Positions 355 through 49,249 of a stretch of 64,000 nt of DNA are shown here, piece after piece. The notes beneath the pieces were generated by a model, which was given only the letters and a program-made list of their open reading frames with translations, did no database searches and was not told the DNA's origin. The stretch's first letter is position 1; every line of letters begins with the position of its first letter. Position numbers and translations under genes: made by a program. Location: assembly GCF_030816505.1 (NCBI RefSeq), contig NZ_JAUSYB010000001.1:2418001-2482000 (forward strand), read 5' to 3'. The stretch is from Microbacterium sp. W4I20 (GTDB lineage: Bacteria > Actinomycetota > Actinomycetes > Actinomycetales > Microbacteriaceae).

Positions 355-1566
355 TCAGCGACGGATGCTGCGCGTCACGGTGAACTTCGAGGTGCGGTGC
401 AGCTGCTCAGTGGCGCCGACGATGCGGGTGAGTTCGGCACGGTATCCGAGCGAGGAGTTGAAGACCGTGAAGAGATCGCCACCGGGGCGCAGCAGGCGTG
501 CCGCGGCTTCGAACAGACGCGTCGCGGCGCCGGTGTGCACACTGGTCCCGAGGTGGAACGGCGGGTTGAGGAGCACGACGTCGGCGCTCGCATCCGGCAG
601 GTCGGATCCCGCGTCGTCGTGCGTGACGACGATGCGGTCGGCCAGCCCGTTCGCCGCCGCGGTGGCCCGGGTCGAGGCGACTGCTGCGGCCGAGCGGTCG
701 GTGGCGATGACGCGGGCCTCCGGGTGGGCGAGAGCGTAGGCCGCGGCGAGCGCGCCGGTGCCGCAGCCGAGGTCGATCACGTCGAGTGCAGGCCCGCCGC
801 CGTGCACAACTCCTCGAGGACGGTCGCTCTCGCGCGGGCCGGCCCCGGAATCACGGCCTTCACCGGCGTCGCGCCCGGAATTCTGGAGGAGTTGTGCACC
901 GCCGAGCCCGAGCACCTCCAGCAGCACGCGCGTGCCGATGTCGAGCCGCGGGCCGGCGAACGCCCCACCGTGGGCCACGAGGGTCAGGCCGTCGTGCTGC
1001 GCAGTCACCGGGAACGGCCGCTGGAGCCCCGCCGGAAGGGGCTCCGCCGCGACCACGAGCCGCGACTTCCGCTCAGCCCGCTGGGCCTGTACCTGCGCGA
1101 AGCTGCGGCCGAGCACCTCGTTCTGTCCGAGCGTCATGTGCTTGACCCTCCCGCCAGCGACGAGCACGACGTCGGGCGCGGCCCAGCGGACGACCGCGTC
1201 GGCGATCTCCTCGAGCTCGGCGAGAGACTTCGGCAGCTGCAGCAACACGACCCTCGCACCCTCGAGCAGGGCGGCATCGAGTTCCTGCGAAGAGAAACCC
1301 CCGAGCCCGAGCTCCTCGGCGTTCCTCACCAGCGCCCGTCGCCCGGTCGCGAGGTCCTGATGCACACGGATGCCGCGGCGTCCGGCATCCGTCAACGCCA
1401 GGGTGACCGCGCCGTACTCGTCGCCGATCACCGCGATCTCGTCGCCCGGCACGTCGAGAGCGAGCGCCCATTCGACCAGCAGCAGATCGGTGGCGTCGTG
1501 GGCCTGGAGGTTCTCCGCCTCGACGTCGGGCCACCGGCGCAGGCGGCTGTAGGGGAACTCCGGCAC
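355..1566 (-). CDS. Class I SAM-dependent methyltransferase, RsmC/RlmG-like, carrying an in-frame palindromic insert
   Basis: 403 aa protein with the layout of RsmC/RlmG rRNA guanine-N2 methyltransferases: a degenerate N-terminal methyltransferase-like half and a catalytic C-terminal half. The C-terminal half shows the SAM-binding motif DLGCGTGALA and the catalytic NPPFH motif (N-P-P-F is typical of N-methyltransferases acting on amino groups). Just before DLGCG lies about 34 residues of low-complexity sequence (AQLLQNSGRDAGEGRDSG...) encoded by the palindromic repeat at 802-900; without it, the flanking text LGLGG and PALDVIDLG would join smoothly. The frame is kept, so the protein may still work. 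Substrate (16S or 23S rRNA) is inferred from family only. It is transcribed alone, divergent from the ABC exporter at 1656. Confidence 0.8.
   Translation of the reverse strand: MPEFPYSRLRRWPDVEAENLQAHDATDLLLVEWALALDVPGDEIAVIGDEYGAVTLALTDAGRRGIRVHQDLATGRRALVRNAEELGLGGFSSQELDAALLEGARVVLLQLPKSLAELEEIADAVVRWAAPDVVLVAGGRVKHMTLGQNEVLGRSFAQVQAQRAERKSRLVVAAEPLPAGLQRPFPVTAQHDGLTLVAHGGAFAGPRLDIGTRVLLEVLGLGGAQLLQNSGRDAGEGRDSGAGPRESDRPRGVVHGGGPALDVIDLGCGTGALAAAYALAHPEARVIATDRSAAAVASTRATAAANGLADRIVVTHDDAGSDLPDASADVVLLNPPFHLGTSVHTGAATRLFEAAARLLRPGGDLFTVFNSSLGYRAELTRIVGATEQLHRTSKFTVTRSIRR
802..900. repeat. Palindromic repeat R1 copy 1, inside the methyltransferase gene
   Basis: Arms GTGCACAACTCCTC (802-815) and GAGGAGTTGTGCAC (886-899) are perfect 14-bp inverted repeats around a GC-rich core. 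Counting the C at 900 the unit is 99 bp (33 codons). It is flanked by GCC on the left (799-801) and GCC on the right (901-903), as expected for a 3-bp target duplication. The same arms recur at 31014 and 49163. It is read through in frame by the methyltransferase gene. Confidence 0.85.
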
Positions 1567-1619
1567 CCGCCCACTGTACGCGCCGGCCGTGAGGATTCCG
1601 CATGCGTTTCTTCGCAGTA

Positions 1620-1635
1620 TTCACAAATCTGTGAA
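1620..1635. promoter_or_regulatory. Palindromic operator candidate upstream of ABC exporter
   Basis: TTCACA-AATC-TGTGAA is a perfect 6-4-6 inverted repeat ending 20 bp before the ATG of the exporter ATPase. It lies in the AT-richest part of the intergenic gap. The MarR-like regulator at the end of the same operon is the natural candidate to bind it, which is inference. Confidence 0.45.
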
Positions 1636-1655
1636 ATAGGCGTAGCGTCCCGACC

Positions 1656-2648
1656 ATGACCACAGTCATCGCCACCCAGGGCCTCACCAAGCACTACGGC
1701 CACGTGCACGCGCTCGACGGGCTCGACCTCACCGTCGAGCAGGGTCAGGTGCACGGATTCCTCGGGCCGAACGGGGCGGGCAAGTCGACCACGATCCGCA
1801 TCCTGCTCGGGCTCGCCCGACGCACCGGAGGCGAGGCATCCGTGTTCGGCGAAGACCCGTGGAGCAAAGCGGTCGATCTGCACCGCCGCATCGCCTACGT
1901 GCCCGGCGACGTGAGCGTCTGGCCCACCCTCTCCGGCGGGGAGGCCGTCGACCTGCTCGCGCGGCTACGCGGTGCGCAGACGAAGGATGCCGCCTACCAG
2001 CACGAGAAGACCCGGCTCATGGAGGCGTTCCAGTTCGACCCGCGCAAGAAGGGCCGCGCCTACTCCAAGGGCAACCGGCAGAAGGTCGCTCTGATCGCGG
2101 CGTTCGCGGTGCCGGCCGACCTGTACATCCTCGACGAGCCGACCAGCGGGCTCGATCCGCTGATGGCGGTGATCTTCCAGCGGGAGGTCGCGCGCGCCCA
2201 CGCGAACGGCGCGACCGTGCTGCTGTCGAGCCACATCATGAGCGAGGTCGAGCAGCTGTGCGACCGGGTGTCGATCATCCGCGCCGGCCGCATCGTCGAG
2301 AGCGGCACCCTGAACGACCTGCGCCACCTCACCCGCAGCGACGTGTCGTTCACGGCATCCGACATCACGCTCGCCGACGTCGCCGCCATCCCCGAGGTGC
2401 ACGACCCGGCGGTGCAGGGCGACCGCATCCGCCTCGCCGTCGACAGCGATCGCACCGCCGTCGTGCTCCCGGCGCTCGCGGCGCTCGGCATCACCGACCT
2501 CCGCGTCGCACCCCCGTCGCTCGAGGAACTGTTCCTGCGCCACTACGGCGACGACCTCGCCAGCCTCGAGGCCGCCGAAGATCGAGTCGCACCCACCGCC
2601 GCACCCCGCACGCGTCGTGAGCGCCGCGAGTCGAAGGACCGGGCGTGA
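1656..2648 (+). CDS. ABC exporter ATP-binding protein
   Basis: 330 aa nucleotide-binding subunit of an ABC-2 type exporter. Walker A is GPNGAGKST near residue 38, the Walker B/D-loop is LDEPTSGLD, and the signature region reads YSKGNRQKV rather than the usual LSGGQ, a variant common in drug/antibiotic ABC-2 exporters. The C-terminal 100 residues form the DrrA-like extension. The start ATG follows a 6-4-6 palindrome. It overlaps the permease gene (TGATG), so the two are translationally coupled. The substrate is unknown; export of a hydrophobic toxic compound is the family expectation. Confidence 0.9.
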   Translation: MTTVIATQGLTKHYGHVHALDGLDLTVEQGQVHGFLGPNGAGKSTTIRILLGLARRTGGEASVFGEDPWSKAVDLHRRIAYVPGDVSVWPTLSGGEAVDLLARLRGAQTKDAAYQHEKTRLMEAFQFDPRKKGRAYSKGNRQKVALIAAFAVPADLYILDEPTSGLDPLMAVIFQREVARAHANGATVLLSSHIMSEVEQLCDRVSIIRAGRIVESGTLNDLRHLTRSDVSFTASDITLADVAAIPEVHDPAVQGDRIRLAVDSDRTAVVLPALAALGITDLRVAPPSLEELFLRHYGDDLASLEAAEDRVAPTAAPRTRRERRESKDRA

Positions 2649-4270
2649 TGACCGCCTTCGCCGTGCTGCTGCGGCAGCGCATCCGCCGCGACTGGCTCCA
2701 GCTGACCCTGTGGATCGGGGGCACGGCGGCGCTCGCCCTCGCCGGGTATGCCGGGGTCTCCCGGTCGTTCTCGACGCTTGAGGATCGGCAGAGCATCCTC
2801 GCCGCGGCGCTCGCCAATCCGGTGATCCTGCTGTTCCGCGGACTCCCCTCCGGCACGTCGGAGGGCGCGTTCATGGCGTTCCAGCTGCTGCCCTGGCTCG
2901 CGCTGCTGGCCGCCCTCATGAGCGCGTTCCTCGCGGTGCGGCACACCAGGGGCGACGAGGAGGCCGGCCGGTCGGAACTCATCTGGGCGACCCCCGCCGG
3001 ACGCCGCGCGCCGACCATCGCCACGATCGCGCACGGTGTGCTCGCCAACGTCGTGCTCGCCGCACTCACGACTCTGGCGCTGCTCGGCGTCGGGCTCCCG
3101 GCGACCGGATCTGTCCTGACCGGCGCCGCGGCCGGCGCCTGCGGCATCGTGTTCCTCGGTGTCGGGCTGCTTGCGGCACAGCTGATGCGCACCGCCCGGG
3201 GAGCGAACTCGCTGACCGTCTGGGTGCTGATGGCGGCATTCCTGGTCCGCGGTCTCGGCAACGCGGCCGGCACCCCGAGCGATGATCTCTCCGAGATGAG
3301 GAGCGCCTGGTTCGCCTGGCTGTCGCCGTTCGCCTGGGCCGAGCAGACCCGCCCCTACGACGCCGACATCGTCGGGCCCGTGCTGCCGCTGCTGGGACTC
3401 GGCCTCGTGCTCGCCGCCACCGCGGTCGCCCTGCAGGCCCTGCGCGACATCGACGCGAGCTTCGTGCCCGAGCGCCGCGGCCGGGTGTCGGCGCGACCGG
3501 CACTCGCCTCGCCGCACGCACTGCTGTGGCGGCTCACCGCGGGCGCGATCGCAGGATGGGCGGTCGGCGGCGCCGTCTCCGGCATGCTCGCCACGACGTT
3601 GAGCGGCGTGATCGACCAGATCTCGGGCGACAACCCGGCGGTGACCGAGGTGCTGAAACAGATCGGCGGCGCGACCGGCGGGCTCGGCGAGACCGTGGTC
3701 ACCGTGTTCTTCACCCTGGTCGGCATCCTCGCGGCCTGCTGCGCGGTGCAGACCGTGGTCCGCGCCCGGCAGGAGGAAGCGCGCGGCACCGCCGAGGTCG
3801 TGCTCGCCACCCCGGTCGGACGCGTGCGCTGGCTCGCCGACCACGTGATCGTGGGGACGTCGGCGGTGGTGATCGTGGTCGCGGCCGCCGTGCTGGCCGG
3901 CTGGATCGGAGCCTGGTCGACGGATGCCGACGACTCGCTCTACCGGATCGTCGCGGTCGCCGGCCTCGGGCAGATCGCCGCCGCCTCGGTGTTCACGGTG
4001 CTGACCGCGCTGGTGTTCGTGCTCGTACCTCGAGCCACGATCGGCCTCGCCTGGACCCTGGTGCTGGTCGCGACGATGCTCGGCATGTTCGGCCCGCTGC
4101 TGGGGCTTCCGGAGTGGAGCGCGAACATCTCGCCGTTCGCGGTGACGCCCGTGGTCGACGGCGAACGAGTGGATGCGCGGGGGCTGTGGTGGTTGCTGTT
4201 CTCGGTCGCCGCCGGGGCCGCGGCGTCGCTGGGCCTGATGCGCCGTCGCGAGCTCGCGACCGGTGGCTGA
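2648..4270 (+). CDS. ABC exporter permease (tetronasin/polyketide-exporter type)
   Basis: About 540 aa membrane protein with roughly twelve hydrophobic segments in two similar halves (each half has an arginine-rich start, then segments such as LLRQRIRRDWLQLTLWIGG and LLWRLTAGAIAGWAVGG). This doubled ABC-2 layout is typical of actinobacterial permeases annotated as polyketide antibiotic or tetronasin exporters. The ATG at 2648 overlaps the ATPase stop by one base; a GTG three bases earlier is possible. It ends inside the region where the MarR-like regulator may start, so the three genes form one operon. Confidence 0.88.
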   Translation: MTAFAVLLRQRIRRDWLQLTLWIGGTAALALAGYAGVSRSFSTLEDRQSILAAALANPVILLFRGLPSGTSEGAFMAFQLLPWLALLAALMSAFLAVRHTRGDEEAGRSELIWATPAGRRAPTIATIAHGVLANVVLAALTTLALLGVGLPATGSVLTGAAAGACGIVFLGVGLLAAQLMRTARGANSLTVWVLMAAFLVRGLGNAAGTPSDDLSEMRSAWFAWLSPFAWAEQTRPYDADIVGPVLPLLGLGLVLAATAVALQALRDIDASFVPERRGRVSARPALASPHALLWRLTAGAIAGWAVGGAVSGMLATTLSGVIDQISGDNPAVTEVLKQIGGATGGLGETVVTVFFTLVGILAACCAVQTVVRARQEEARGTAEVVLATPVGRVRWLADHVIVGTSAVVIVVAAAVLAGWIGAWSTDADDSLYRIVAVAGLGQIAAASVFTVLTALVFVLVPRATIGLAWTLVLVATMLGMFGPLLGLPEWSANISPFAVTPVVDGERVDARGLWWLLFSVAAGAAASLGLMRRRELATGG

Positions 4271-4292
4271 GACCGCGGATAGGGTAGCCCCG

Positions 4293-4793
4293 ATGGCTGA
4301 CGACGACACGGCGGATGCCGCGGCATCCGCTTCCGACCTGCACCGCGCGACCGGGCCGGCCGAACAGGCTGCGGCCATGCTGACCTCCGCGGGGATGCCG
4401 CGCATGCCCGCCCGCGTGATGATGGCCCTGGTCGCCGCGCCGGACGGCGGGTACACGGCGGCGCAGATCGCCGACCGGCTGGGCATCTCTGCCGCCGCGG
4501 TGTCGGGCGCGGTGCGCTACCTGCAGCAGCTCCACTTCATCGTGCGGCGGTCACGACCGGGCGATCGCCGTGACCGCTACGAGTTCGTGCACGACACCTT
4601 CTCGGGCTCGATGGTCGCGAACACCCCGGTCTACACCCGCCTCTCGGAGTTCATCGACGAGATCGCCGCCGAGCACGACGACGACCCCGGCGCCCAGGAG
4701 CGCGCGGCCGAACTCGCCGACTTCTTCCGGTTCCTCTCCGAGCGGATGCTGCAGATCGTCGAGGACTGGCGCGCACAGCGCCGCCCGGACTGA
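4293..4793 (+). CDS. MarR/GbsR-like winged-helix transcriptional regulator
   Basis: 166 aa from the ATG at 4293 (a GTG at 4263, overlapping the permease stop, would add ten residues). The centre shows a winged HTH: YTAAQIADRLGISAAAVSGAVRYLQQLHFIVRR, followed by a basic wing (RPGDRRDRYEF). The rest is helical, as in MarR/GbsR dimerisation regions. Being the last gene of the ABC exporter operon, it probably represses the operon in response to the exported compound; the palindrome at 1620-1635 is the likely site (inference). Confidence 0.82.
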   Translation: MADDDTADAAASASDLHRATGPAEQAAAMLTSAGMPRMPARVMMALVAAPDGGYTAAQIADRLGISAAAVSGAVRYLQQLHFIVRRSRPGDRRDRYEFVHDTFSGSMVANTPVYTRLSEFIDEIAAEHDDDPGAQERAAELADFFRFLSERMLQIVEDWRAQRRPD

Positions 4794-4850
4794 CTCCCCC
4801 CAGCATCCGCCCCCGCCCAGCATCCGCTCACCTCGGATACACCCGTCGGA

Positions 4851-4905
4851 CGACACGCCAGATGTCGGACCGGTCCGCGGCATCCGTCCGACATCTGGCG
4901 TGTCG
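4851..4905. repeat. Perfect 20-bp inverted repeat, intergenic
   Basis: Arms at 4851-4870 and 4886-4905 are perfect reverse complements (CGACACGCCAGATGTCGGAC), with a 15-nt loop. It lies 58 bp after the MarR gene and 35 bp before the next promoter. There is no U tract, so it is either a factor-dependent terminator or one of the long single-copy hairpins that recur in this window (also 16161, 55434, 56569, 57679). Confidence 0.75.
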
Positions 4906-4939
4906 GCCCCCTGTTCGGGCGAGCACGCGAGCGGAGGGG

Positions 4940-4983
4940 TTGACACCCCATAGGTTCCATGGTTAGTTACTCATGTAAGTAAC
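4940..4983 (+). promoter_or_regulatory. Promoter and operator of the ytrA-type operon
   Basis: TTGACA (4940-4945) is followed after 18 bp by TAGTTA (4964-4969). Overlapping the -10 is the inverted repeat GTTACT-CATGTA-AGTAAC (4966-4983), placed as a repressor site would be. A GGAAGGA ribosome site follows before the GTG at 5008. The encoded GntR protein is the likely ligand of the palindrome (autoregulation, as known for the YtrA subfamily). Confidence 0.65.
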
Positions 4984-5007
4984 CCACCAACCACCTCGGA
5001 AGGACCC

Positions 5008-5403
5008 GTGATCGAAGAAGGCAAGCCGCTCTTCCTCCAGATCGCCGAACAGATCGAGGACTCGATCATCGACGGTTCGCTCGCCGAGGAAGCCCAGGCA
5101 CCGTCCACGAACGAGCTCGCCGCGTTCTACCGGATCAACCCCGCCACCGCAGCCAAGGGAGTCGCCATGCTCACCGACAAGGGAGTGCTCTACAAGCGCC
5201 GAGGAATCGGCATGTTCGTCGCCGAGGGGGCGCGCGAGATGCTCCTCGGCGAGCGCCGCTCGGCCTTCGCCGACCGCTACATCGACCCGCTCCTCGCCGA
5301 GGCGCGCACGCTGGGGCTCGGCCCCGACGACCTGGCCGACCTGCTCCGGCAGCGCGCCGCACACGCTCCGTCCACCACCGCAGAAGGGAAGTCCCCCGCA
5401 TGA
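5008..5403 (+). CDS. GntR family regulator, YtrA subfamily
   Basis: 131 aa, the usual short YtrA form: N-terminal winged HTH (PLFLQIAEQIEDSIIDGSLAEEAQAPSTNELAAFYRINPATAAKGVAMLTDKGVLYKRRGIGMFV split over about residues 7-75) and a short C-terminal helical tail, without a FadR/HutC effector domain. GTG start with GGAAGGA at good distance. It overlaps the ATPase gene by ATGA. YtrA proteins repress the ABC exporter operon they belong to and respond to cell-envelope stress or antibiotics; that role is inferred here. Confidence 0.9.
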   Translation: MIEEGKPLFLQIAEQIEDSIIDGSLAEEAQAPSTNELAAFYRINPATAAKGVAMLTDKGVLYKRRGIGMFVAEGAREMLLGERRSAFADRYIDPLLAEARTLGLGPDDLADLLRQRAAHAPSTTAEGKSPA

Positions 5404-6317
5404 CCGCCGTCATCGAGGTGCAGAACCTCACCAAGCGCTACAAGGAGAAGCGGGCGCTCGACAACGTCTCGCTCTCGATCGAAGGAAACGCCATCCACGG
5501 CCTCCTGGGCCGCAACGGCGCCGGCAAGACCACGCTCATGTCGATCCTCACGGCGCAGAACTTCGAGACGTCCGGGACCGTCAAGGTCTTCGGCGAGCAC
5601 CCGTACGAGAACGCCGGCGTGCTCGGACGGATCTGCTTCGTCCGAGAGAGCCAGAAGTACCCGGACGACGCGTACCCGAAGCACGCGTTCAAGGCCGCGC
5701 GCCTGTTCTTTCCGAACTGGGATCAGGAGCTCGCCGACGAGCTCATCGACGAGTTCCAACTGCCGATGAAGCAGACGATCAAGAAGCTCTCCCGTGGGCA
5801 GCTCTCGGCCGTCGGCGTGATCATCGGCCTCGCGTCTCGCGCAGACATCACCTTCTTCGACGAGCCCTACCTCGGGCTCGACGCGGTCGCCCGGCAGATC
5901 TTCTATGACCGTCTCATCGAGGACTACGCCGAGCATCCGCGCACGATCATCCTGTCGTCCCACCTGATCGACGAGGTCTCCAACCTCATCGAGAAGGTCA
6001 TCGTGATCGACAACGGCCAGATCCTGCTGCAGGACGACACGGATGCCGTGCGCGACCGCGCCGTCACCCTCGTGGGCGACGCGGCCAAGGTCGAAGCCTG
6101 GGTCGCCGGCCGCGAGGTCCTGCACCGGGAAGCGCTGGGCCGCGTGGCATCCGTCACCGTGCTCGGACGACTGTCCGCCACCGAGAAGGCCGAGGTCACG
6201 GCATCCGGTCTCGATCTCGCCCCGGTCTCCCTCCAGCAGCTCGTCGTCCGCCTGACCCAGAAGGCGGGCGTCCACTCCGACACGCGAGACGCGATCACGA
6301 AAGAGGAGGTGCGCTGA
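5400..6317 (+). CDS. ABC transporter ATP-binding protein of YtrA-type operon
   Basis: 305 aa. Walker A GRNGAGKTT near residue 38, signature LSRGQLSAV, Walker B FFDEPYLGLD, and a switch histidine in LSSHLIDE. The tail (about residues 220-305) is a short substrate-independent extension. Starts 4 bp inside the regulator gene and overlaps the permease by one base (TGATG). Gene order regulator-ATPase-permease matches YtrA-type operons. Substrate unknown. Confidence 0.9.
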   Translation: MTAVIEVQNLTKRYKEKRALDNVSLSIEGNAIHGLLGRNGAGKTTLMSILTAQNFETSGTVKVFGEHPYENAGVLGRICFVRESQKYPDDAYPKHAFKAARLFFPNWDQELADELIDEFQLPMKQTIKKLSRGQLSAVGVIIGLASRADITFFDEPYLGLDAVARQIFYDRLIEDYAEHPRTIILSSHLIDEVSNLIEKVIVIDNGQILLQDDTDAVRDRAVTLVGDAAKVEAWVAGREVLHREALGRVASVTVLGRLSATEKAEVTASGLDLAPVSLQQLVVRLTQKAGVHSDTRDAITKEEVR

Positions 6318-7003: not shown

Positions 7004-7036
7004 TCCGCCGCTGAGCCCGAACGTCATACGACGACG

Positions 7037-7076: not shown

Positions 7077-7120
7077 TGTCATTGTGCGACGTTCTGTCGA
7101 ACGGGCGGATGCGGAAGAGC

Positions 7121-7144: not shown

Positions 7145-7151
7145 CGCGGGG

Positions 7152-29135: not shown

Positions 29136-31667
29136 GTGCCCCTGTCCCCGAGCGAGCTGCATCGGCGTGGAGTCGAGGCGGCCAACGCCCGACGGTTCAC
29201 GCAGGCGCGGCGTGCGCTCGATGCGGCATCCGCACGCACCGACGATCCCGACCTGCGCGCCCGCATCGACGGGACGATCGCCTACGTCCTCGCGCAGACC
29301 GGCGAGCCCGTCGCGGCCGAGCAGCTCTGCCGCGCGGCGCTGAAGCGCGCGGGGGCGAGTGCGGAGACCGTGGCGCTGCTGAGCGGACAGCTCGGCACGC
29401 TGCTCCTGCAGGGCGGGCGGCTCGACGAGGCCACGACGATGCTCACCCGCGCGATCGTCGCCCTCACGGACACAGGCGCGGAGTCGATCGAGCTCGCCAA
29501 CTGCCTGATGAATCGATCGATCGTGCGGATGCAGCGGCACGAGCTCGATGCCTGCGTGGACGATCTGCGCCGCGCCGTGGCCGTGTACGAGGCCGCCGAC
29601 GCCGAGGAACCGCTCGCCGAGGCGCGGCACAACCTCGGCTACGCGGCCCTCCTGGGCGGCGACCTGGTCACGGCGCTCACGATGATGACGCGCTCGCGCC
29701 CCACGATCGCCGCGACCAGCGATCTCGCCGCCGCGATCAGCGACCTCGACCGGGCCGAGGTTCTCCGCGATGCCGGGCTCACGACCGAGGCCGAGGCCCT
29801 GCTGGGTCGGGTCGCGCAGCAGTTCGGTGCGCAGCGCATGCAGCAGGCCCGCGGTGAGGCGGAGTTCCACCTCGCGCGCTCCCTGGTGCGGCACGATCCC
29901 GCCGCGGCCGAGCGCACCGCGCGCATCGCCGCCCGCCGCTTCGCGGCGCTCGACAACCAGACATGGGCTGCACGCGCCGATGCCGTGCGTCTCGAGGCGC
30001 AGCAGCGCGCGCGACCGGGCCGACCGATCGACACGGCCGAGCTCGCCCGCACCGCGAACACCCTCGCGCGCAGCGGGTTCCGTACCGAGGCGGCGGCGCT
30101 CCGGCTCGGCGCGCGACGCGACGGCAGCGGACGGATGCCACGGCTCGCCGCCGCCGCCCCGACTCCGCTGCGGCTCCGGGCGCAGGAGGTGCGGGCCGCG
30201 CGAGCGGCAGCGGCCGGACGGGACCGGGATGCACTGCGCGCCGCGGCCGACGGTCTCGACCTGCTGACCGCGTGGCAGCGGTCGTTCGGCGCGCTCGACC
30301 TGCAGGCCTCGGTCGCGATGCACGGCAGCGACCTGATGTTCGCCGGGTTGTCGGCGGCCGCACGGCTGCGCGACCCCGCGGTGCTGTTCGAGTGGTCGGA
30401 GCGCGCACGGCACCTCAGCCAGCAGGTGGCGCCGGTGCGACCCCCGCGCGACGACGACCTCGCGGACGATCTGGCCGAGTTGCGGATGCTGCGCGCCGAG
30501 CTCGCCGGCCAGGACTGGACGACCGATGCCCGGGTGCGGGGGCTGCGGGACCAGGTGCGCGAGCGGCAGTGGGCGACGACCGGGTCAGGCGGCACCCGCG
30601 AGCGGGTCGGGCTGGCGGAGGCGATGGCGCTCCTCGGCCCCGACACGGCGGTGCTGTCGTACGTGTTCACGGGAGCCGAGCTGTGCGCGGTCGTGGTCGC
30701 CGCATCCGGCGCCACGATCGTCGACCTGTCGTGGGCACGGGTGCGCGCGGCGCTCGACGGCCTCCGCGCCGACCTCGACATGGCCGCGCTCACCCGCGGC
30801 GGGGTGATGGGGCCGGTGACCGAACGGGCGCTGGTAGCGCGGCTCGAGCTGCTCGACGCCGAGCTGCTCGTTCCGCTGCGGCGGGCGGCGGCCGGGGCCT
30901 CCAGGCTTGTGATCACGGTGCCCGGCGCCCTCGCAGGAGTGCCGTGGGCGATGCTGCCGGGCATGGCGGGCACCCCGTTCACCCTCGCGACGTCGGTGTC
31001 ACGCTGGCTGGCCGTGAACAACTCCTCGAGAACGAGCGCTCCGTCCCTCGGAAACGCCGCCCCGCGGCCTGCGGCAGGCGTTTCGGAGGAGTTGTTCACC
31101 GCCGGCACCCGCCACCCGCGCCGGATCGGCTTCGCGACCGGGCCCCGCGTGCCCCGCGCCGAGGAGGAGGTGCGCCGCGCGGCCGCCGTCTGGCGCGACG
31201 GGGGCACGGGTTCGACGACGATGCTCGAGTTGGCCGACGCCTCGGTCGCCTCCGTGACCGCCCTCGCGGCCGACGTCGACCTGCTGCACATCGCCGCGCA
31301 CGGCCGCCATGCCGTCGACAACCCGCTCTTCTCGGGCTTCGAGCTCGCCGACGGGACCCTGTTCGGCTACGACGTGGACCTGATCCCGCGGGTTCCCGCG
31401 ACCGTGATCCTGTCGGCGTGCGAGCTCGGTCGCTCGTCGGTGCGCTGGGGCGAAGAGGCGCTGGGCATGACCCGGGTGTGGTTGCATGCCGGGGCCGATT
31501 GCGTGATCGCGGCGCCGGTCGCCGTGCCGGATGACGTCGCCTGCGAGCTGCTCAGCGCGGTGCACGCCGAGCTCGCGGCGGGCTCAACTCCCGCGGTCGC
31601 GCTGGCCGCGGCATCCGATTCGACCGGGTTGCGCGCCCCGTTCCAGTGCCATGGAAACGGATTCTGA
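29136..31667 (+). CDS. TPR-CHAT caspase-like protease
   Basis: 843 aa from GTG 29136. Residues 1-350 are tetratricopeptide-like helical repeats (ELHRRGVEAANARRFTQARRALDAA, NLGYAALLGGDLVTALTMM). Residues about 490-835 form a CHAT (caspase HetF associated with TPRs) domain with the catalytic dyad His722 (HIAAHGRH) and Cys762 (ILSACELGRS). Residues 627-656 (NNSSRTSAPSLGN ... SEELFT) are encoded by palindromic repeat R1 copy 2 and interrupt the domain in frame between its start and LPR-like GFATGPRVPRAEEEV. Paired with a subtilisin and a sigma factor. TPR-CHAT proteins are proteases in several bacterial conflict systems; the trigger here is unknown. Confidence 0.9.
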   Translation: MPLSPSELHRRGVEAANARRFTQARRALDAASARTDDPDLRARIDGTIAYVLAQTGEPVAAEQLCRAALKRAGASAETVALLSGQLGTLLLQGGRLDEATTMLTRAIVALTDTGAESIELANCLMNRSIVRMQRHELDACVDDLRRAVAVYEAADAEEPLAEARHNLGYAALLGGDLVTALTMMTRSRPTIAATSDLAAAISDLDRAEVLRDAGLTTEAEALLGRVAQQFGAQRMQQARGEAEFHLARSLVRHDPAAAERTARIAARRFAALDNQTWAARADAVRLEAQQRARPGRPIDTAELARTANTLARSGFRTEAAALRLGARRDGSGRMPRLAAAAPTPLRLRAQEVRAARAAAAGRDRDALRAAADGLDLLTAWQRSFGALDLQASVAMHGSDLMFAGLSAAARLRDPAVLFEWSERARHLSQQVAPVRPPRDDDLADDLAELRMLRAELAGQDWTTDARVRGLRDQVRERQWATTGSGGTRERVGLAEAMALLGPDTAVLSYVFTGAELCAVVVAASGATIVDLSWARVRAALDGLRADLDMAALTRGGVMGPVTERALVARLELLDAELLVPLRRAAAGASRLVITVPGALAGVPWAMLPGMAGTPFTLATSVSRWLAVNNSSRTSAPSLGNAAPRPAAGVSEELFTAGTRHPRRIGFATGPRVPRAEEEVRRAAAVWRDGGTGSTTMLELADASVASVTALAADVDLLHIAAHGRHAVDNPLFSGFELADGTLFGYDVDLIPRVPATVILSACELGRSSVRWGEEALGMTRVWLHAGADCVIAAPVAVPDDVACELLSAVHAELAAGSTPAVALAAASDSTGLRAPFQCHGNGF
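31014..31100. repeat. Palindromic repeat R1 copy 2, inside the CHAT gene
   Basis: Arms GTGAACAACTCCTC (31014-31027) and GAGGAGTTGTTCAC (31086-31099). With the C at 31100 the unit is 87 bp (29 codons). GCC lies immediately on both sides (31011-31013, 31101-31103). Shares CAACTCCTCGAG-ACG with copy 1. The matched G-to-A change in both arms keeps the palindrome, a compensating pair. Confidence 0.85.
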
Positions 31668-42204: not shown

Positions 42205-42212
42205 CACTTCTC

Positions 42213-42512: not shown

Positions 42513-42573
42513 GCCCCTACTCTAGAGCCGCGGAACGCCCGGTCCGGAAGAGCGCCACCGCTATCGTGAGCAC

Positions 42574-43803
42574 ATGAGCAACGACGAGTCGCCGGCCTCC
42601 GCACCCACCGACGACCAGACGCCCGACGTCCCCGCCGACGCGGCCACGGCCACCTCCGACGAACCCGACACCACGCCGCACACCGTGACCACGATCGTCA
42701 CCGCGCCGATGCCCCGACCCGCCGTCGTGGAGCCCATGGCGCCGAGCCGCTCGTTCTGGACCCGCATCGATCGACCGTTCGTGTTCGGGTTCCTGGTCAC
42801 CCTCGGCGGACTCGGCGCGCTCGTGCTCGGTCTCGCCCTGACGAGTCTATCGACCGTGCTGATCTACATCGCCCTCGCCCTCTTCGCGGCGCTCGGGCTC
42901 GACCCCGCGGTGCGCTTTCTGGAGCGCCGCGGGCTCTCCCGAGGACCGTCGGTCGTCACCGTGATCCTCGCGCTCATCGTGCTGGTCGGGCTGATCCTCT
43001 GGACGGTGATCCCGATCGTCATCGAGCAGATCGCGAGCTTCGTGCGCTCGGTTCCGGGGATGATCAAGGAGTTCACCCGGACCGACCTCTACGCGACGTT
43101 GAACCAGCAGTTCGGCGAGCAGTTCCAGGATCTGGTGTCGGAGGTGCAGAAGTTCCTCTCCGATTTCGGCAACATCGCCACGATCGGCGGCGGCGCCCTG
43201 CAGGTCGGGGCATCGATCGCGACGGGCATCTCCGGTGCGATCGTCGTGCTCGTGCTCACGCTCTACTTCCTCGCCACCCTCCCGACGATGAAGCAGGGCC
43301 TGCTGCGGCTCGCGCCGGCACGCGATCGTGCCCGCGCGGGTGACATCACCGACCAGATCACCGACTCGGTCGGCGGCTACGTGATGGGGATGGTGGTGCT
43401 CGCCTTCTGCAACGCGGTGCTCGCTTTCCTGCTCTACCTGTTCCTCGGCCTGCCGTTCCCGCCGCTCATGGCCACGATCGCGTTCTGCATCACGCTGATC
43501 CCGCTCGTCGGCTCCGTGCTGTTCTGGATCATCGGCACCGGCATCGCCCTGTTCACGAACCCGATCGGGGCGCTCATCTTCGCGATCGTGTACCTGATCT
43601 ACATGCAGATCGAGGCCTATGTGATCACCCCGCGCGTGATGAACAGGGCCATCGCGATCCCCGGCTCGCTGGTCGTCATCGGCGCCCTGGCCGGCGGCAC
43701 GCTGCTGGGCCTCCTCGGCGCGCTCGTGGCCGTCCCCGTCGCGGCATCCATCCTCATCATCATCAAGCAGGTGCTCGTGCCACGGCAGGACGCCCGAGTC
43801 TAG
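42574..43803 (+). CDS. AI-2E family transporter
   Basis: 409 aa. The first 70 residues are a Thr/Asp/Pro-rich cytoplasmic tail, then about eight membrane segments. Characteristic text: PFVFGFLVTLGGLGALVLGLAL, the soluble central region (VPGMIKEFTRTDLYATLNQQFGEQF), and IPLVGSVLFWIIGTGIALFTNP near the end. The family includes TqsA-like exporters and Na+/H+ antiporters, so the name does not prove AI-2 transport. Divergent from chorismate mutase. Confidence 0.88.
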   Translation: MSNDESPASAPTDDQTPDVPADAATATSDEPDTTPHTVTTIVTAPMPRPAVVEPMAPSRSFWTRIDRPFVFGFLVTLGGLGALVLGLALTSLSTVLIYIALALFAALGLDPAVRFLERRGLSRGPSVVTVILALIVLVGLILWTVIPIVIEQIASFVRSVPGMIKEFTRTDLYATLNQQFGEQFQDLVSEVQKFLSDFGNIATIGGGALQVGASIATGISGAIVVLVLTLYFLATLPTMKQGLLRLAPARDRARAGDITDQITDSVGGYVMGMVVLAFCNAVLAFLLYLFLGLPFPPLMATIAFCITLIPLVGSVLFWIIGTGIALFTNPIGALIFAIVYLIYMQIEAYVITPRVMNRAIAIPGSLVVIGALAGGTLLGLLGALVAVPVAASILIIIKQVLVPRQDARV

Positions 43804-43830
43804 GGCGGCCGAGAACGCCGCCCGCACGCA

Positions 43831-43863
43831 GAAGTGCCCGGTCCCATCGGGCCCGGGCACTTC
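43831..43863. terminator. Bidirectional terminator
   Basis: GAAGTGCCCGG (43831-43841) pairs with CCGGGCACTTC (43853-43863) between the convergent AI-2E and osmolyte-transport genes, followed by TCGTTC on +. A smaller GGGCGGC/GCCGCCC hairpin precedes it at 43803-43823. Confidence 0.75.
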
Positions 43864-43894
43864 TCGTTCAGAAGATCGCTGTCAGAACGACGAC

Positions 43895-44818
43895 TCAGAC
43901 GAGGTCGTTGTCTTCCAGCCACTTCTTCGCGATGTCGGCCGACGACTGCTCCTCGACCGCGCTCAGCACGTTCAGGGAGACGAGCTCCTCGGCGGTGAGC
44001 TTCTCGCTGATCGCGTTGAGCACGTCGGAGACGTCATCCGCGATGTCGCTCGAGACGATCGGCACGACGTTCGACGAGATGATCAGGTTCTTCGGGTCTT
44101 CCAGGGCGACGATGTCCTCGGTCTGGAAGGCCGGCTCGGAGGTGTAGATGTCGGCGACCTGGATCTGGCCCTCGAGCAGCGACTGGAGCGTGGTCGGACC
44201 GGTTGCCGAGAACTTCAGGTCGACGCCGTAGACCTCCTTGGCGGCTGCGGGGTTGTACGGCCGCTCCTCGAACTCCGGCGGAGCGCCGATCGTGACCTCG
44301 GTCGGGACGTTCTTGAGGTCCTCGATCGTCTTCAGGTCGTGCTCCTCGGCGAAGCTCTTGAGCACCGTGTAGGTGTCCTGGTCGGTGGCCTCGGCGTAGT
44401 CGAGAGCCGTCAAGCTGTCCGGGAGGACATCCTGCAGAGCGGCATAGACCTCGTCCGATGCCGTGACGTCGACCTCGTCGTCGGAGAGGTACTCCAGCAG
44501 GCTGCCGGTGTACTCCGGGAAGACGTTGATGGCGCCGGACTCGACCTCGGGCATGTACGCGTCGCGCTGACCGATGTTGAGCTGCTTCTTGACGTCGAAC
44601 CCGGCCCCCTCGAGAGCCTGGGCGTAGATCTCGGCGATGATCTCGTTGGAGTAGTACCCCTGCGAGCCGACGACGATCGTGTCGGAGCTGCCGGAGCCCG
44701 AACCGGTGTCTTCGGAGGGCTCGTCGAGCGGGTTGCCGCCGCAGGCGGTCAGGGCGAGTGCGGCCGCGGCCACCAGGCCGACAGCCAGGACGGAGCGCTT
44801 GCCTCGTGCTGTGAACAT
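43895..44818 (-). CDS. Glycine betaine/choline-type binding lipoprotein (OpuBC/OsmF-like)
   Basis: 307 aa from ATG 44818. Lipoprotein signal with lipobox LTAC at about residue 25. OpuAC-type text: TIVVGSQGYYSNEIIAEIYAQALEGAGFDVKKQLNIGQRDAYMPEVESGAINVFPEYTGSLL. Captures a quaternary amine or similar osmoprotectant outside the cell. Last gene of the four-gene importer. Confidence 0.9.
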   Translation of the reverse strand: MFTARGKRSVLAVGLVAAAALALTACGGNPLDEPSEDTGSGSGSSDTIVVGSQGYYSNEIIAEIYAQALEGAGFDVKKQLNIGQRDAYMPEVESGAINVFPEYTGSLLEYLSDDEVDVTASDEVYAALQDVLPDSLTALDYAEATDQDTYTVLKSFAEEHDLKTIEDLKNVPTEVTIGAPPEFEERPYNPAAAKEVYGVDLKFSATGPTTLQSLLEGQIQVADIYTSEPAFQTEDIVALEDPKNLIISSNVVPIVSSDIADDVSDVLNAISEKLTAEELVSLNVLSAVEEQSSADIAKKWLEDNDLV

Positions 44819-44877
44819 GGACTTCCTCTTCTCTGGGACGTGCTGAATGCTGTGGGTGCGGGAGGGAACGATGAAGG

Positions 44878-45612
44878 TCAGGCCGTCGCGGTGGACGGCT
44901 CCGCTGCCGGGGCCAGCGGACGGGTGCGGCGCCGGGTCTGGCGCCCGGTGCGGAGGCCGCGGGGAACAGCGGCGTGCTGAGCCGCGGCAAGCAGCAGGTC
45001 GACGAGCAGCGCCAGGACCGCGACGATCAGCGCACCGCCGAGCACCTGGTCGAAGCGTCGCAGCGGAATGCCCTGGATGATCGGATACCCGAGGCCGCCA
45101 AGGTTCACGTAGGCCGCGATCGTCACGGTCGCGATGACCTGCAGAAGGGCGGAGCGGATGCCGCCGACGAGCAGCGGCAGGCCCAGCGGAACCTCGACCT
45201 TCCAGAAGATCTGCCACTCGGTCATGCCCATGGCGCGCGCGGAGTCGATCACCCGCCGGTCGATGGCCTCGAGGCCCGTGTACGCCCCGGCGAGCAGCGA
45301 CGGGATGGCGAGGAGCACGAAGGTGATGATCGCGGCCTGGGGAACCCGGAGCACGCCGAGCAGGAGCACGAGCAGCACCATGAGACCGAAGGCCGGAATG
45401 GCGCGCGCCGCGCCCGAGACGGCCACGGCGATCTCACGCCCGCGCCCGGTGTGGCCGATGAGCCAGCCGATGGGGAGAGCGATGGCGGCCGCGATGAGCA
45501 CCGAGATCAGCGTGAGGGCGAGGTGCTGACCGAGCAGCACCGGAAGGGCGTAGCTGCCCTGCCACTGCTTCGGGGCGAGCATCCAGGCGATGGCATCGGC
45601 GAAGAGATTCAT
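44878..45612 (-). CDS. Osmolyte ABC transporter permease (OpuCB/OpuCD-like)
   Basis: 244 aa from ATG 45612. Five to six membrane segments; EAA loop RVIDSARAMGMTEWQIFWKVEVPLGLPLLVGGIRSA; AAYVNLGGLGYPIIQGI is typical of the OpuC family. Overlaps the other permease by ATGA. Confidence 0.9.
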   Translation of the reverse strand: MNLFADAIAWMLAPKQWQGSYALPVLLGQHLALTLISVLIAAAIALPIGWLIGHTGRGREIAVAVSGAARAIPAFGLMVLLVLLLGVLRVPQAAIITFVLLAIPSLLAGAYTGLEAIDRRVIDSARAMGMTEWQIFWKVEVPLGLPLLVGGIRSALLQVIATVTIAAYVNLGGLGYPIIQGIPLRRFDQVLGGALIVAVLALLVDLLLAAAQHAAVPRGLRTGRQTRRRTRPLAPAAEPSTATA

Positions 45613-46289
45613 GCGGCAGCCCTCACCGGGACGGACTTGGCGGCGGCGACGCGGCTGGGGGCCGTGGTCCACGGCATCAGCGCGCGACCGATCAGCAGCA
45701 GGAGCAGGTCGATCAGCAGCGCGATGACGACGACCGCGACGACGCCCGCGAGCACCTCGGCGATGATGCGCCGCTCGAGCCCGTTGGTGAAGAGGTAGCC
45801 GAGGTTCGTGACGCCGATGAGGATGCCGACCGTCGCGAGCGAGATCGTGCTGACCGCCGCGACGCGGAGCCCGGCGAGGATCACCGGACCGGCGAGCGGG
45901 AACTCGACCGCCCAGAAGCGGCGGAACGGGGCGAAGCCGGTGGCGGTCGCCGCCTGCCGCACGCCCTCATCGACCGAGTCGAGGCCGTCGGCGACCGAGC
46001 GCACCAGGATCGCGACGGCGTAGATCGTGAGCGCGATCACCAGGTTGGTCTCGCTGATCGCGGAGTAGCCGAGCGTGGCCGGCAGCAGGATCAGCAGCGC
46101 CAGCGACGGGATCGTGTAGAGCAGACCCGTGAGCACGATGATCGGGCCGCGCACGAGGCGGTAGCGCCAGGCCACCCAGCCCAACGGAAGCGACAGCACG
46201 AACCCGAGCACGATCGGCACGATGCTCTGACGCAGGTGGACCAGCGTCAGCTCGAAGATCAGACCGAGGTTGTCGGTGACCCAGTTCAC
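45609..46289 (-). CDS. Osmolyte ABC transporter permease (OpuCB-like)
   Basis: 226 aa from GTG 46289, which overlaps the ATPase stop (GTGA). Membrane segments include IVPIVLGFVLSLPLGWVAW and YTIPSLALLILLPATLG; EAA loop EGVRQAATATGFAPFRRFWAVEFPLAGP. Second membrane subunit of the importer. Confidence 0.9.
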   Translation of the reverse strand: MNWVTDNLGLIFELTLVHLRQSIVPIVLGFVLSLPLGWVAWRYRLVRGPIIVLTGLLYTIPSLALLILLPATLGYSAISETNLVIALTIYAVAILVRSVADGLDSVDEGVRQAATATGFAPFRRFWAVEFPLAGPVILAGLRVAAVSTISLATVGILIGVTNLGYLFTNGLERRIIAEVLAGVVAVVVIALLIDLLLLLIGRALMPWTTAPSRVAAAKSVPVRAAA

Positions 46290-47125
46290 GCCGCGCCGTC
46301 CTGCTTTTCGGGGTCGGCGACGATCGCTCCCTGCGTGCGTCCTTCGGAGTCGACGACGACGGTGCCGTGCGGGGTCTCCTTGAGGCGCAGCGCCCGCCGA
46401 CCGCGGTCGGCCCCGATGAAGGCGGCGACGAAGTCGTCGGCCGGGTTCTCGATGATCTCGCTCGGGCTGCCCACCTGCACGATGCGCGCGCCCTTGTCGA
46501 GGATGACGACCTGGTCGCCGAGCAGGAACGCCTCGTCGATGTCGTGCGTGACGAAGACGACCGTCTTGTCGAGCTCGTGCTGCAGCCGCAGGGTCTCCTG
46601 CTGCAGGTCGGCGCGCACGATCGGGTCGACCGCGCCGAAGGGCTCGTCCATCAGCAGGATGTTCGGGTCGGCGGCGAGGCCGCGGGCCACGCCGACGCGC
46701 TGCTGCTGGCCACCGGACAGCTGGCTCGGATACCGCTCGGCGAGCGCCTGGTCGAGCCCGACCGTGTCGAGCAGCGTGCGCGCACGCTTGTGGGCTTCGG
46801 GCTTCTTGACGCCCGTGAGGCGGAGGACGGTGGCGACGTTGTCGATCACGGAGAAGTGCGGCATGAGGCCGGAGTTCTGCATGACGTAGCCGATCCGGCG
46901 GCGCAGCTGCACCGGATCGCCGACCAGCACGTTCTCGCCGTCGATCTCGATGTCGCCCGAGGTCGGTTCGACCATGCGGTTGATCATGCGCAGGAGTGTG
47001 GTCTTGCCGCATCCGGACGATCCGACGAACACCGTGGTCTTGCGCGACGGGAGGACCAGGCTGAAGTCGTCCACGGCGACGGTGCCGTCGGGGAACTGCT
47101 TGGTGACATTACGGAACTCGATCAT
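46286..47125 (-). CDS. Osmolyte ABC transporter ATP-binding protein (OpuCA/ProV-like)
   Basis: 279 aa. Walker A GSSGCGKTT, signature LSGGQQQRV, Walker B LLMDEPFGAVD, and FVTHDIDEAFLLGD. The C-terminal part lacks a full pair of CBS domains found in longer OpuCA proteins, so ionic-strength sensing may be absent. First gene of ATPase-permease-permease-binding protein. Its ATG follows a weak ribosome site. Confidence 0.92.
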   Translation of the reverse strand: MIEFRNVTKQFPDGTVAVDDFSLVLPSRKTTVFVGSSGCGKTTLLRMINRMVEPTSGDIEIDGENVLVGDPVQLRRRIGYVMQNSGLMPHFSVIDNVATVLRLTGVKKPEAHKRARTLLDTVGLDQALAERYPSQLSGGQQQRVGVARGLAADPNILLMDEPFGAVDPIVRADLQQETLRLQHELDKTVVFVTHDIDEAFLLGDQVVILDKGARIVQVGSPSEIIENPADDFVAAFIGADRGRRALRLKETPHGTVVVDSEGRTQGAIVADPEKQDGAA

Positions 47126-47190
47126 GGGTCACTTTCCAGTCGGTCGATCGACGAGGCGCGCATCGGCGCCCCGGCGCCGGCATACGGAGG

Positions 47191-47493
47191 TCATTCGCTG
47201 ATCTGCACGCGGGGGTCGAAGGCGACGTACCCGGAGAAGTCGGTGCCGACGCGTTCGAACGCGGACGGGTAGGGCGTGGGGTACGACCAGGCGTAGTCGG
47301 TGTGCAGCTCGTCTCCGGTCTGCACCGAGAAGTACTGCGCGGCACCCTTCCACGGGCAGGTGTACGGGGTGGGGCTCTCGACGAGCGCGCCCTCGGCGAC
47401 GGATGCCGGCGGGAAGTACCAATTGCCCTCGATGCGGACGAGATCGCTCTCGTCGGCTTCGGCGATGACGGTTCCTGCGAGTACAGCCTTCAT
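47191..47493 (-). CDS. DUF427 domain protein
   Basis: 100 aa from ATG 47493, preceded by GAGGAGG. Family text: MKAVLAGTVIAEADESDLVRIEGNWYFP, CPWKGAAQYFSV and AWSYPTPYPSAFERVGTDFSGYVAFDPRVQI. A small single-domain beta-tent protein of unknown function, common in actinobacteria. Confidence 0.9.
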   Translation of the reverse strand: MKAVLAGTVIAEADESDLVRIEGNWYFPPASVAEGALVESPTPYTCPWKGAAQYFSVQTGDELHTDYAWSYPTPYPSAFERVGTDFSGYVAFDPRVQISE

Positions 47494-47650
47494 GGTCCTG
47501 CCTCCTCGGATGTGGGTTCGAGCGTATAAGACGGGTGGGACATCCGGCGTGGGGTTGCGCACCGGACCGTCAATGTGAGAAACAATCCCCGATCTGTTCG
47601 GTACCGCGCCGCCAGCGGATTGCGGGCGGAGCGGCCCTGTTCGGTCATGT

Positions 47651-49087
47651 TCAGGCCGAGTCGCGTCCGTAGCCCTCCAGCAGGCGGAGCCAGACCTCGC
47701 TGATGGTCGGATAGGCGGGCACCGCGTGCCACAGGCGCTTGATCGGCACCTCTCCGACGACCGCGAACGTCGCGGCCTGCACGAGCTCCGCGACCTCCGG
47801 ACCGACGAAAGTGGCGCCGAGCACGACGTCGCGGGCGGCGTCGACCACCAGCCGGGCCTGACCCTCGAAGCCGTCCTCGTAGACGCTCGATCCGGCGACG
47901 GCGCCGAGGTCGTAGTCGACGACCTTCACCTCGTGGCCCGCTTCGCGCGCGGCGGCCTCGGTGAGTCCGACCGACGCCACCTCGGGGAACGAGAACGTGA
48001 CCTGCGGCACCGCGGCGTGGTCCGCCGTGGCGACGTGCCGGCCCCAGGGGGCGTCGTCGACCTCGTCGCCCTTTGCCCTCGCGACGATCACGTCACCCGC
48101 GGCCCGCGCCTGATACTTGCCCTGGTGGGTGAGCAGGACGCGGCCGGTGACGTCGCCGACCGCGTACAGCCAGTCGGATCCGGGAACGCGCAGGGTGTCG
48201 TCGGTCTCGATCCACTTCCCGGCCTCGAGCCCCACGACGTCGAGCCCGATGTCGTGGTTGTGCGGCGAGCGGCCGGTCGCGGCGAGCACCTCGCTCGCGA
48301 CGATCTCCTCGCCGCCCTCGAGCGTGACGGTCACGCCGCCGTCGCCGCGGTGCACGGACGCCGTTCCGGTCGACGTGCGCACGTCGACGCCGAGCTCCTT
48401 GAGCCCGGCGGCCACCCGCTCACCGGCGAACGGCTCCATCGTCGACAGCAGCTCGCCGCGCGCGATGAGCGTCACGGTCGAACCGAGCGAGGCGTAGACG
48501 GTGGCCATCTCCACGGCGACGACGCCGCCGCCGATCACGGCCAGGCTGTCGGGCAGCTCCTCGGCGCTCGTGGCCTCGCGGCTGGTCCACGGCGCAACAT
48601 CCCGCAGTCCGTCGATGGGCGGGATGACCGCCTGGGATCCGGTGCTGATCGCGACGGCATGGCGGGCACGGAGCACGCGGGTGCCGCCGTCGGCATCCGT
48701 CACGGTGACCTCACGCTCGCCGGTGATCCGGCCGAAGCCGCGGGCCAGAGCGATGCCGGCCGAGTCCAGCCACTTCACCTGGCCGTCGTCTGACCAATTG
48801 CTCGTGAACGAGTCGCGGCGGTCGAACACCGCCCGCACGTCGAGCTTTCCCGTCACGGCCTGTGACGCACCGCCCACGTTCTGGGCGGCGCGGAGCGCCT
48901 GCGCCGGACGCAGCAGCGCCTTCGACGGCATGCACGCCCAGTAGGAGCACTCGCCTCCGACCAGCTCGCTCTCCACGATGATCGCGGTGAGACCGCCCTG
49001 TACAGCGCGGTCCGCGACGTTCTCGCCGACGGCACCTCCGCCCAGGACGATCAGGTCGTACTCGTCGGTCTTCTCGGCAGCAGTCAT
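47651..49087 (-). CDS. Flavin-dependent pyridine nucleotide-disulfide oxidoreductase
   Basis: 478 aa from ATG 49087 (GGAGAGG eight bases upstream; a GTG nine bases earlier is too close to it). FAD motif VLGGGAVGEN; redox-active pair Cys47/Cys52 in GGECSYWACMPSK; second Rossmann motif VIGGGVVAVEMA; FAD motif YAVGDV; C-terminal dimer domain ending AVPAYPTISEVW. Related to dihydrolipoamide dehydrogenase and mercuric reductase, but the CSYWAC motif marks a distinct actinobacterial subgroup of unknown substrate. No lipoamide complex genes nearby. Confidence 0.88.
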   Translation of the reverse strand: MTAAEKTDEYDLIVLGGGAVGENVADRAVQGGLTAIIVESELVGGECSYWACMPSKALLRPAQALRAAQNVGGASQAVTGKLDVRAVFDRRDSFTSNWSDDGQVKWLDSAGIALARGFGRITGEREVTVTDADGGTRVLRARHAVAISTGSQAVIPPIDGLRDVAPWTSREATSAEELPDSLAVIGGGVVAVEMATVYASLGSTVTLIARGELLSTMEPFAGERVAAGLKELGVDVRTSTGTASVHRGDGGVTVTLEGGEEIVASEVLAATGRSPHNHDIGLDVVGLEAGKWIETDDTLRVPGSDWLYAVGDVTGRVLLTHQGKYQARAAGDVIVARAKGDEVDDAPWGRHVATADHAAVPQVTFSFPEVASVGLTEAAAREAGHEVKVVDYDLGAVAGSSVYEDGFEGQARLVVDAARDVVLGATFVGPEVAELVQAATFAVVGEVPIKRLWHAVPAYPTISEVWLRLLEGYGRDSA

Positions 49088-49162
49088 GTGTCGCACCTCT
49101 CCGTCGCCCAGTCTCGCTCAAGAGCAACGCCGAGTCACGGGTCAGTTGTTCCCCGCCGGCGC

Positions 49163-49249
49163 GTGCACAACTCCTCCATTCCGCGTCGGAACCGGGTCCA
49201 GCACCCCGAATCCGCCCCGAAATCGGAGGTTCTTGCGGAGTTGTGCACC
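49163..49249. repeat. Palindromic repeat R1 copy 3, intergenic
   Basis: Arms GTGCACAACTCC (49163-49174) and GGAGTTGTGCAC (49237-49248); with the C at 49249 the unit is 87 bp, the same length as copy 2. It lies between bioY and the flavin oxidoreductase gene. Only GC is shared on both flanks here. Confidence 0.85.

Follow-up and report, generated by a model that had tools for sequence, protein, structure and literature searches.

R1 is a palindromic element with three copies in a 64,000-nucleotide stretch of the Microbacterium sp. W4I20 genome (contig NZ_JAUSYB010000001.1, positions 2,418,001 to 2,482,000; this whole stretch is called the window). The locus raises the question of what such an element is and why its form is kept. 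A preliminary description of the window proposed a small mobile element selected for leaving reading frames intact. We favor another answer, to which we assign a probability of about 0.5: R1 elements are paired docking sites for a putative DNA-looping protein, distributed along the chromosome like Noc or SlmA sites.

R1 is a dispersed repeat family of Microbacterium

Each R1 element consists of two inverted arms of about 20 bp (GTKCACAACTC...) that flank a copy-specific spacer. The three palindromic units with shared inverted arms are present in the window as they had been described. Copy 1, of 98 bp, spans positions 802 to 899 with a profile score of 60.4 bits; its left arm (802 to 823, plus strand) and right arm (878 to 899, minus strand) enclose an imperfect palindrome position, CCCCGGAATCACGGCC, at the exact center of the 98-mer (843 to 858). 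Copies 2 and 3 are both 86 bp long, at 31014 to 31099 and 49163 to 49248, with left arms on the plus strand (31014 to 31035 and 49163 to 49184) and right arms on the minus strand (31078 to 31099 and 49227 to 49248). Zero-mismatch matches to the arm core GTGNACAACTCC in the window are these six arms and no others, and allowing up to two mismatches gave 33 window matches, compared to a mean of 10.8 in shuffles. The window had no Rfam match to a known RNA family at gathering scores.

The home genome contains 29 exact GTGNACAACTCC matches (16 forward and 13 reverse), with none for a reversed-pattern control. When variant second arms were allowed in pairing, 24 of the 29 made up 15 elements of 85, 86, 97, or 98 bp, while the five single matches, judged by eye, resemble coding sequence. 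With two tandem partners, the number of elements rises to 17, and variant-arm copies add further ones. A second arm subfamily, GTTCACAATTCAGCNAGA and its near variants, is also found in the home genome (L293, 11456 to 11541; L294, 1085 to 1169; L300, 9662 to 9744).

Of 149 genus genomes, 12 had paired arms that matched a strict pattern, and a profile built from 35 elements matched in 112, with up to 27 candidates scored per genome and both strands counted. These matches, throughout the home genome and the genus, bear out the earlier proposal of a dispersed palindromic family. The reversed-pattern control gave no match in five scans, and in a looser scan it gave one match in G113, three in G118, and one in G116. 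A scan of named species genomes returned 33 stretches, 27 of them from Microbacterium; the others were from Lacisediminihabitans (two), Agromyces, a Salinibacterium metagenome-assembled genome, Sinomonas, and Salipiger, and we took the Sinomonas and Salipiger matches (92 bp) as chance. Arm variants differ by lineage (GTGCACAACTC, GTTCACAACTC, and GTGCAGAACTC with GAGTTCTGCAC).

Element length follows the helical turn

One pattern that admitted total lengths of 56 to 117 bp was scanned over 40 genomes and gave at least 155 distinct elements among the matches listed, from 30 genomes; late-listed genomes are undercounted in this set, and most 86-bp copies of the home genome (G000) lie outside it. 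All but three elements (152/155) fall near 75, 86, 98, or 108 bp, with 11 at 74 to 76 bp, 90 at 84 to 87 bp, 43 at 97 to 98 bp, and 8 at 107 to 108 bp. The class means of 75.1, 85.9, 97.8, and 107.8 bp are fitted by a straight line with a period of 11.0 bp, which is about one helical turn. The remaining three measure 115 to 116 bp, and two of these, which hold inner arms, may be one pair nested in another. Lengths of 77 to 83, 88 to 96, 99 to 106, and 109 to 114 bp were empty among the listed elements, a total of 30 vacant values among the 43 between 74 and 116 bp. When arms were matched more loosely across all search loci, 138 arm pairs, which overlap with this set, showed the same peaks plus outliers that included 88, 92, 95, and 96 bp.

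The quantized unit is the helical turn (11 bp) and not the codon. Divided by three, the listed lengths leave a remainder of 0 in 22 cases, 1 in 28, and 2 in 105. The preliminary description had given the window copies lengths of 99, 87, and 87 bp, all multiples of three, but these figures needed an added C; without it, the copies are 98, 86, and 86 bp, each with a remainder of 2. The frame rule was an accident: one base added to members of the 86- and 98-bp classes makes their lengths multiples of three. The same description had named a majority of copies that are not multiples of three as the finding that would speak against selection for frame neutrality. That majority is what the listed elements show (133/155), and about 105 of 116 placed elements are intergenic. 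Palindromes within genes can thus seem frame neutral by accident, which calls for caution.

Conserved arms flank a free spacer

In the 98-bp class, a consensus palindrome, CCGCGGAATTCCGCGG, lies at the exact center (38 nonredundant copies). The center of the 85- and 86-bp classes is less marked, with weaker preferences for GAA and TTC. Away from the center, the spacer shows little conservation. Interior identity was 0.33 versus an expected 0.30 in the 86-bp class (37 nonredundant copies) and 0.44 versus 0.33 in the 98-bp class (38 copies, with the central palindrome counted). Among 21 home-genome elements (210 pairs), one tandem pair shares an 18-base word, and shuffled interiors reached at most 13. 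Watson-Crick pairing within the spacer was 0.354 in 86-bp copies (n = 24) and 0.344 in 98-bp copies (n = 17), compared to cross-element null values of 0.335 and 0.361. Since spacer pairing equals the null, R1 is not a long hairpin, and we ruled out a long RNA or single-stranded DNA hairpin.

The spacer also bears on whether R1 could be a REPIN, an inverted dimer of repetitive extragenic palindromic (REP) sequences that is moved by the REP-associated tyrosine transposase (RAYT) and has a spacer that is variable but conserved in length. R1 shares the two inverted conserved ends and the spacer of set length. However, it has no excess spacer pairing, its consensus by eye carries neither a GTAG nor a CGTC tag, and its arms are not hairpins themselves. 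Moreover, the Y1 transposase family PF01797 had a match in only 1 of 149 genus genomes, and the home genome had none. This scarcity eliminates the best-known means by which such doublets move, so we rejected a RAYT-driven REPIN and regard a REPIN origin of any kind as highly improbable. Literature searches on REPIN/RAYT in Actinobacteria, on Microbacterium repeats and chromosome organization, and on Microbacteriaceae MITEs (miniature inverted-repeat transposable elements) gave no description of R1 among the matches listed, and a word search of the main text of a 2025 survey of REP sequences found no mention of Microbacterium (PMC12306157).

Within an element, the inner bases of the two arms resemble each other no more than when arms are paired at random (p = 0.34, 17 home-genome elements), and such independence would fit protein half-sites. 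Outside the arms, there is a weak T preference at position -15 (40% versus 15%), and A at position -1 rounds to 0% (248 sides). We read this pattern of arms, spacer, and flanks as a putative protein footprint. A length set by the helix around a spacer of free sequence would be a strong sign that a protein bridges the arms.

R1 is concentrated in the origin-proximal half of the chromosome

We located dnaA in 21 of 21 genomes tested and used it alone to place the origin, because the GC skew of 20 samples was too weak to do so. A guess from map positions that R1 was a terminus-associated site fell when dnaA in the home genome proved to lie at 2575 kb. Positions were counted from class-length pattern matches (75, 85 to 88, 95 to 98, and 106 to 109 bp) and listed profile matches, merged within 5 kb. 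Off-class matches were excluded from this count (in kb, G000 2504, G034 255, G071 1355, G113 1326, G084 1346, and G120 138 and 2135), as were 5 of the 21 genomes, three with profile matches of unlisted position (G031, G070, and G085) and two with dnaA on partial contigs of 2.1 and 1.6 Mb (G080 and G012).

In the twelve genomes with a one-contig chromosome, 64 of 73 elements fall in the origin-proximal half, and the counts per tenth from origin to terminus are 19, 17, 12, 9, 7, 3, 4, 1, 0, and 1. In four multicontig genomes, 35 of 39 elements fall in this half. Taken by genome, the mean position falls in the origin half in 14 of 16 (p = 0.002); the element-wise p values are 1e-11 and 2e-7 when elements are taken as independent. 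In the home genome, ten 20-kb samples at 0.68 to 0.97 of the way to the terminus contained zero elements at E < 0.01, and ten at 0.02 to 0.26 contained five. The numbers of convergent, codirectional, and divergent gaps were nearly equal between the two sample sets (12/53/23 versus 14/51/28).

Origin-proximal DNA is often better conserved, and functionless old repeats might last only there, which would produce the bias with no chromosome role. Several elements are old, standing at corresponding sites in different species, which is in keeping with such survivorship. Functionless repeats, however, would not keep their arms and mostly their length while the spacer scrambles, and in the home-genome sample, intergenic gaps near the terminus are about as frequent as those near the origin. 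We consider this explanation improbable.

R1 persists at corresponding sites

In different species, R1 elements are found again next to the same open frames. Two other species have counterparts of copy 3 next to the same gene, the three lengths being 86, 85, and 86 bp. G005, a near relative, shares a 98-bp element with the home genome; the arms of the two copies are 0.90 and 0.70 alike and their interiors 0.45 alike. Across species, elements stand at varying distances from the open frame, and the length class mostly holds. Thirty species were aligned at the promoter of a gene that we take from its reading frame to be galT; both arms are recognizable in 26 of them (up to 3/11 mismatches per arm) and decayed in four, and they lie exactly 86 bp apart in 24 of those 26. 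The galT locus is no test of spacer freedom because the interior is conserved there too.

This old element (L026, 1501 to 1586; L253 to L282) encloses an operator-like region, GTTCACGTAAACATGGTA...TAACGTCAACA, and the apparent galT start. The idea that arms arose there around preexisting sequence was unsupported, as the element appears old and its arms are decayed in some species. We also considered shared neighbor genes as pointers to a binder, but recurrent neighbors seem to reflect corresponding sites, and no candidate emerged.

Tandem copies and copies within genes

The host genes of copies 1 and 2 show sites where R1 is present in some species and absent from others. Copy 1 lies within the open reading frame (ORF) of an MTS-domain methyltransferase (355 to 1566, minus strand), at about residues 222 to 255 and just ahead of the MTS domain (262 to 398). 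Copy 2 lies within the ORF of a CHAT-domain protein (29136 to 31667, plus strand) and inside the CHAT match (domain 570 to 827). We aligned six nearer relatives at each site. The copy 1 site is occupied in G014 and G001 by an element whose interior differs and in G005 by a palindrome of another kind; G002, G022, and G021 have no element. At the copy 2 site, G005 has a decayed element, and G002, G022, G001, G021, and G019 have none. These alignments support the placement of some copies in coding-sequence linkers that relatives lack.

In G005, the nearest relative (L081), the palindrome in the copy 1 coding linker has the arms CTTCGACAAGCTCAG...CTGAGCTTGTCGAAGG, and its core, TTCGACAAGCTC, had no match in the window. 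The window contains another palindrome, CCGCTCCCGTGGCA...TGCCACGGGAGCGG, in two 74-bp copies (55434 to 55507 and 56569 to 56642) with 85% identity and starts 1135 bp apart.

At seven loci (L012, L022, L033, L057, L058, L065, and L079), two or three element copies stand about 150 to 260 bp apart; in many cases, their flanks are repeated and their interiors have partly diverged. By our reading of the sequences, neighboring copies of 98 and 88 bp in one genome differ in length through a 10-bp gap.

The strongest rival to paired docking sites is an old mobile element with helix-phased ends. R1 would then be a MITE-like miniature element moved in trans by a transposase, with its 11-bp steps coming from the synapsis needs of very short ends, which helical phasing also suits. 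The terminal inverted arms and dispersed copies fit this, as do the presence and absence among relatives at copies 1 and 2, the tandem copies, and the sites inside genes, and there is a weak excess of short flank matches (6 of 4 bases versus 1.7 expected and 12 of 3 bases versus 5.3). Against this, only 1 of the 210 home-genome pairs, a tandem one, shares interior beyond shuffles. Across 125 flank pairs and 72 offset/length combinations, no one target-duplication length stands out; the relatives aligned at copies 1 and 2 are too diverged for exact empty sites to be visible. Base preferences extend outside the arms, the arms at corresponding sites are kept despite a scrambled spacer, and the copies are origin biased rather than evenly spread. 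Two exact-pattern scans of viral contigs gave no R1 match, and on the same scans we set aside a phage origin. We consider a mobile element unlikely, though a serious contender. The mobility proposed in the preliminary description was not borne out: signs of target duplication were weak, dispersed copies of the home genome shared no interior beyond chance, and elements persist at corresponding sites across species.

Intergenic placement

Of 126 class-length elements available, the 116 with sufficient and distinct flanks were placed relative to genes with a homemade gene finder, which put the galT-promoter copy inside a gene. Eleven were inside a gene, 51 between codirectional genes, 42 between convergent genes, and 12 between divergent genes, whereas 243 of 300 random positions were inside genes. 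Copy 3 is intergenic, as had been described, between a flavoprotein gene (pyridine nucleotide-disulfide oxidoreductase; 47651 to 49096, minus strand) and bioY (49274 to 49921, minus strand). In L027, L049, and L214, elements lie at a nearly equal offset inside a long ORF, and one such ORF has a Walker-type ATPase motif by eye.

Convergent gaps are enriched among the intergenic copies (42/105 versus 9/54 intergenic random positions), as would be expected if R1 served as a bidirectional transcription terminator or RNA hairpin between genes. Some interiors also have a terminator-like hairpin, such as AGAAACCGGCC...GGCCGGTTTCT, beside one arm (seen in G142, G075, G069, G116, G132, L034, and L009). 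However, the 51 codirectional and 12 divergent placements among the 116 do not suit terminators, spacers are on average unpaired, and termination leaves the helical steps, the centered palindrome, and the origin bias unexplained. A terminator function therefore appears quite improbable.

A proposed composite site for a bridging protein

The helical phase is fixed, the spacer is free, the half-sites vary independently, and elements persist at corresponding sites; together, these features lead us to a composite site for a putative bridging protein. Each element would be a composite double-stranded DNA site for one candidate sequence-specific protein, with two inverted half-sites of about 20 bp and further central contacts, the half-sites lying about 75, 86, 98, or 108 bp apart. 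Whole-turn spacing would put both arms on one face of the helix, where a dimer or tetramer could bridge them and bend or loop the intervening DNA. The spacer could then mutate freely, and its length would rarely alter except by about one turn. Sites may come and go between genes or in linkers, with selection keeping the origin-proximal ones and few near the terminus. The candidate protein would probably organize or mark the origin-proximal chromosome, as with Noc or SlmA sites.

Several observations weigh against this reading. Looser searches give off-class pairs, for example, of 83, 92, 94, 95, 101, 104, and 112 bp; many of these look like chance but not all, as the Lacisediminihabitans copies are 95 to 97 bp. 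Some groups of counterparts mix classes (98/98/108/75 bp in one and 85/88/98 bp in another). The outer 11 arm bases are slightly matched within an element (p = 0.037, 17 home-genome elements), so that the matched arm changes of the preliminary description hold weakly for these bases and fail for the inner ones. The tandem and coding-linker copies suggest duplication or insertion. The origin bias fits less well in G034 (9/13), G120 (5/7), G047 (2/3), G118 (0/1), and G084 (0/1, near the terminus), and part of it could arise because old sites survive better in the conserved DNA near the origin, one repeat family having been mapped. No profile match was found in 37 of the 149 genus genomes. Finally, no binding protein was identified, and no systematic search for one was made.

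A wider proposal, which we put forward tentatively as possible but doubtful, is that Microbacteriaceae have a previously undescribed chromosome-marking system in which a looping protein acts on paired half-sites that are helix phased, clustered near the origin, and scarce near the terminus. The abstracts of two reports describe several actinobacteria as lacking the known division-site regulators (PMC7968930, PMC7118173). If the proposal is true, these actinobacteria would have a nucleoid occlusion-like or origin-domain signal with a site design unrelated to those of Noc, SlmA, and MatP. If the origin bias is functional, R1 would give a direct handle on how actinobacteria mark chromosomes for segregation or division.

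Comparison with known systems

Rickettsia palindromic elements are palindromic and can lie inside genes, in frame, with a length that is a multiple of three. The parallel drawn with them in the preliminary description fails on both in-frame genic location and length, since 11 of 116 R1 elements are inside predicted genes and 22 of 155 are multiples of three; the R1 interior is also unshared. With MITEs, R1 has terminal inverted repeats in common. REPINs and REP dimers, in the portions of PMC3116915 and PMC3733652 that concern them, resemble R1 in having two inverted conserved ends and a less conserved spacer of similar length. R1 differs from them in the missing RAYT match in 148 of 149 genomes, the absence by eye of a GTAG/CGTC tag, the unpaired spacer, the 11-bp length steps, and the origin bias.

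Among chromosome-domain sites, the matS sites of Escherichia coli are, like R1, dispersed and in some cases intergenic, but they are located at the terminus and consist of a single 13-bp motif, according to the relevant passages of PMC3116907. The closest distribution is that of the Noc sites of Bacillus subtilis and the SlmA sites of E. coli, which passages of PMC4726725 and PMC3116907 describe as underrepresented near the terminus; like R1, these sites are dispersed, sequence specific, and palindromic, occur in tens per chromosome, and are depleted at the terminus. In design they differ: the Noc site is one 14-bp palindrome and the SlmA site is GTGAGTACTCAC, whereas R1 has two inverted half-sites, 75 to 108 bp across, that are helix phased.

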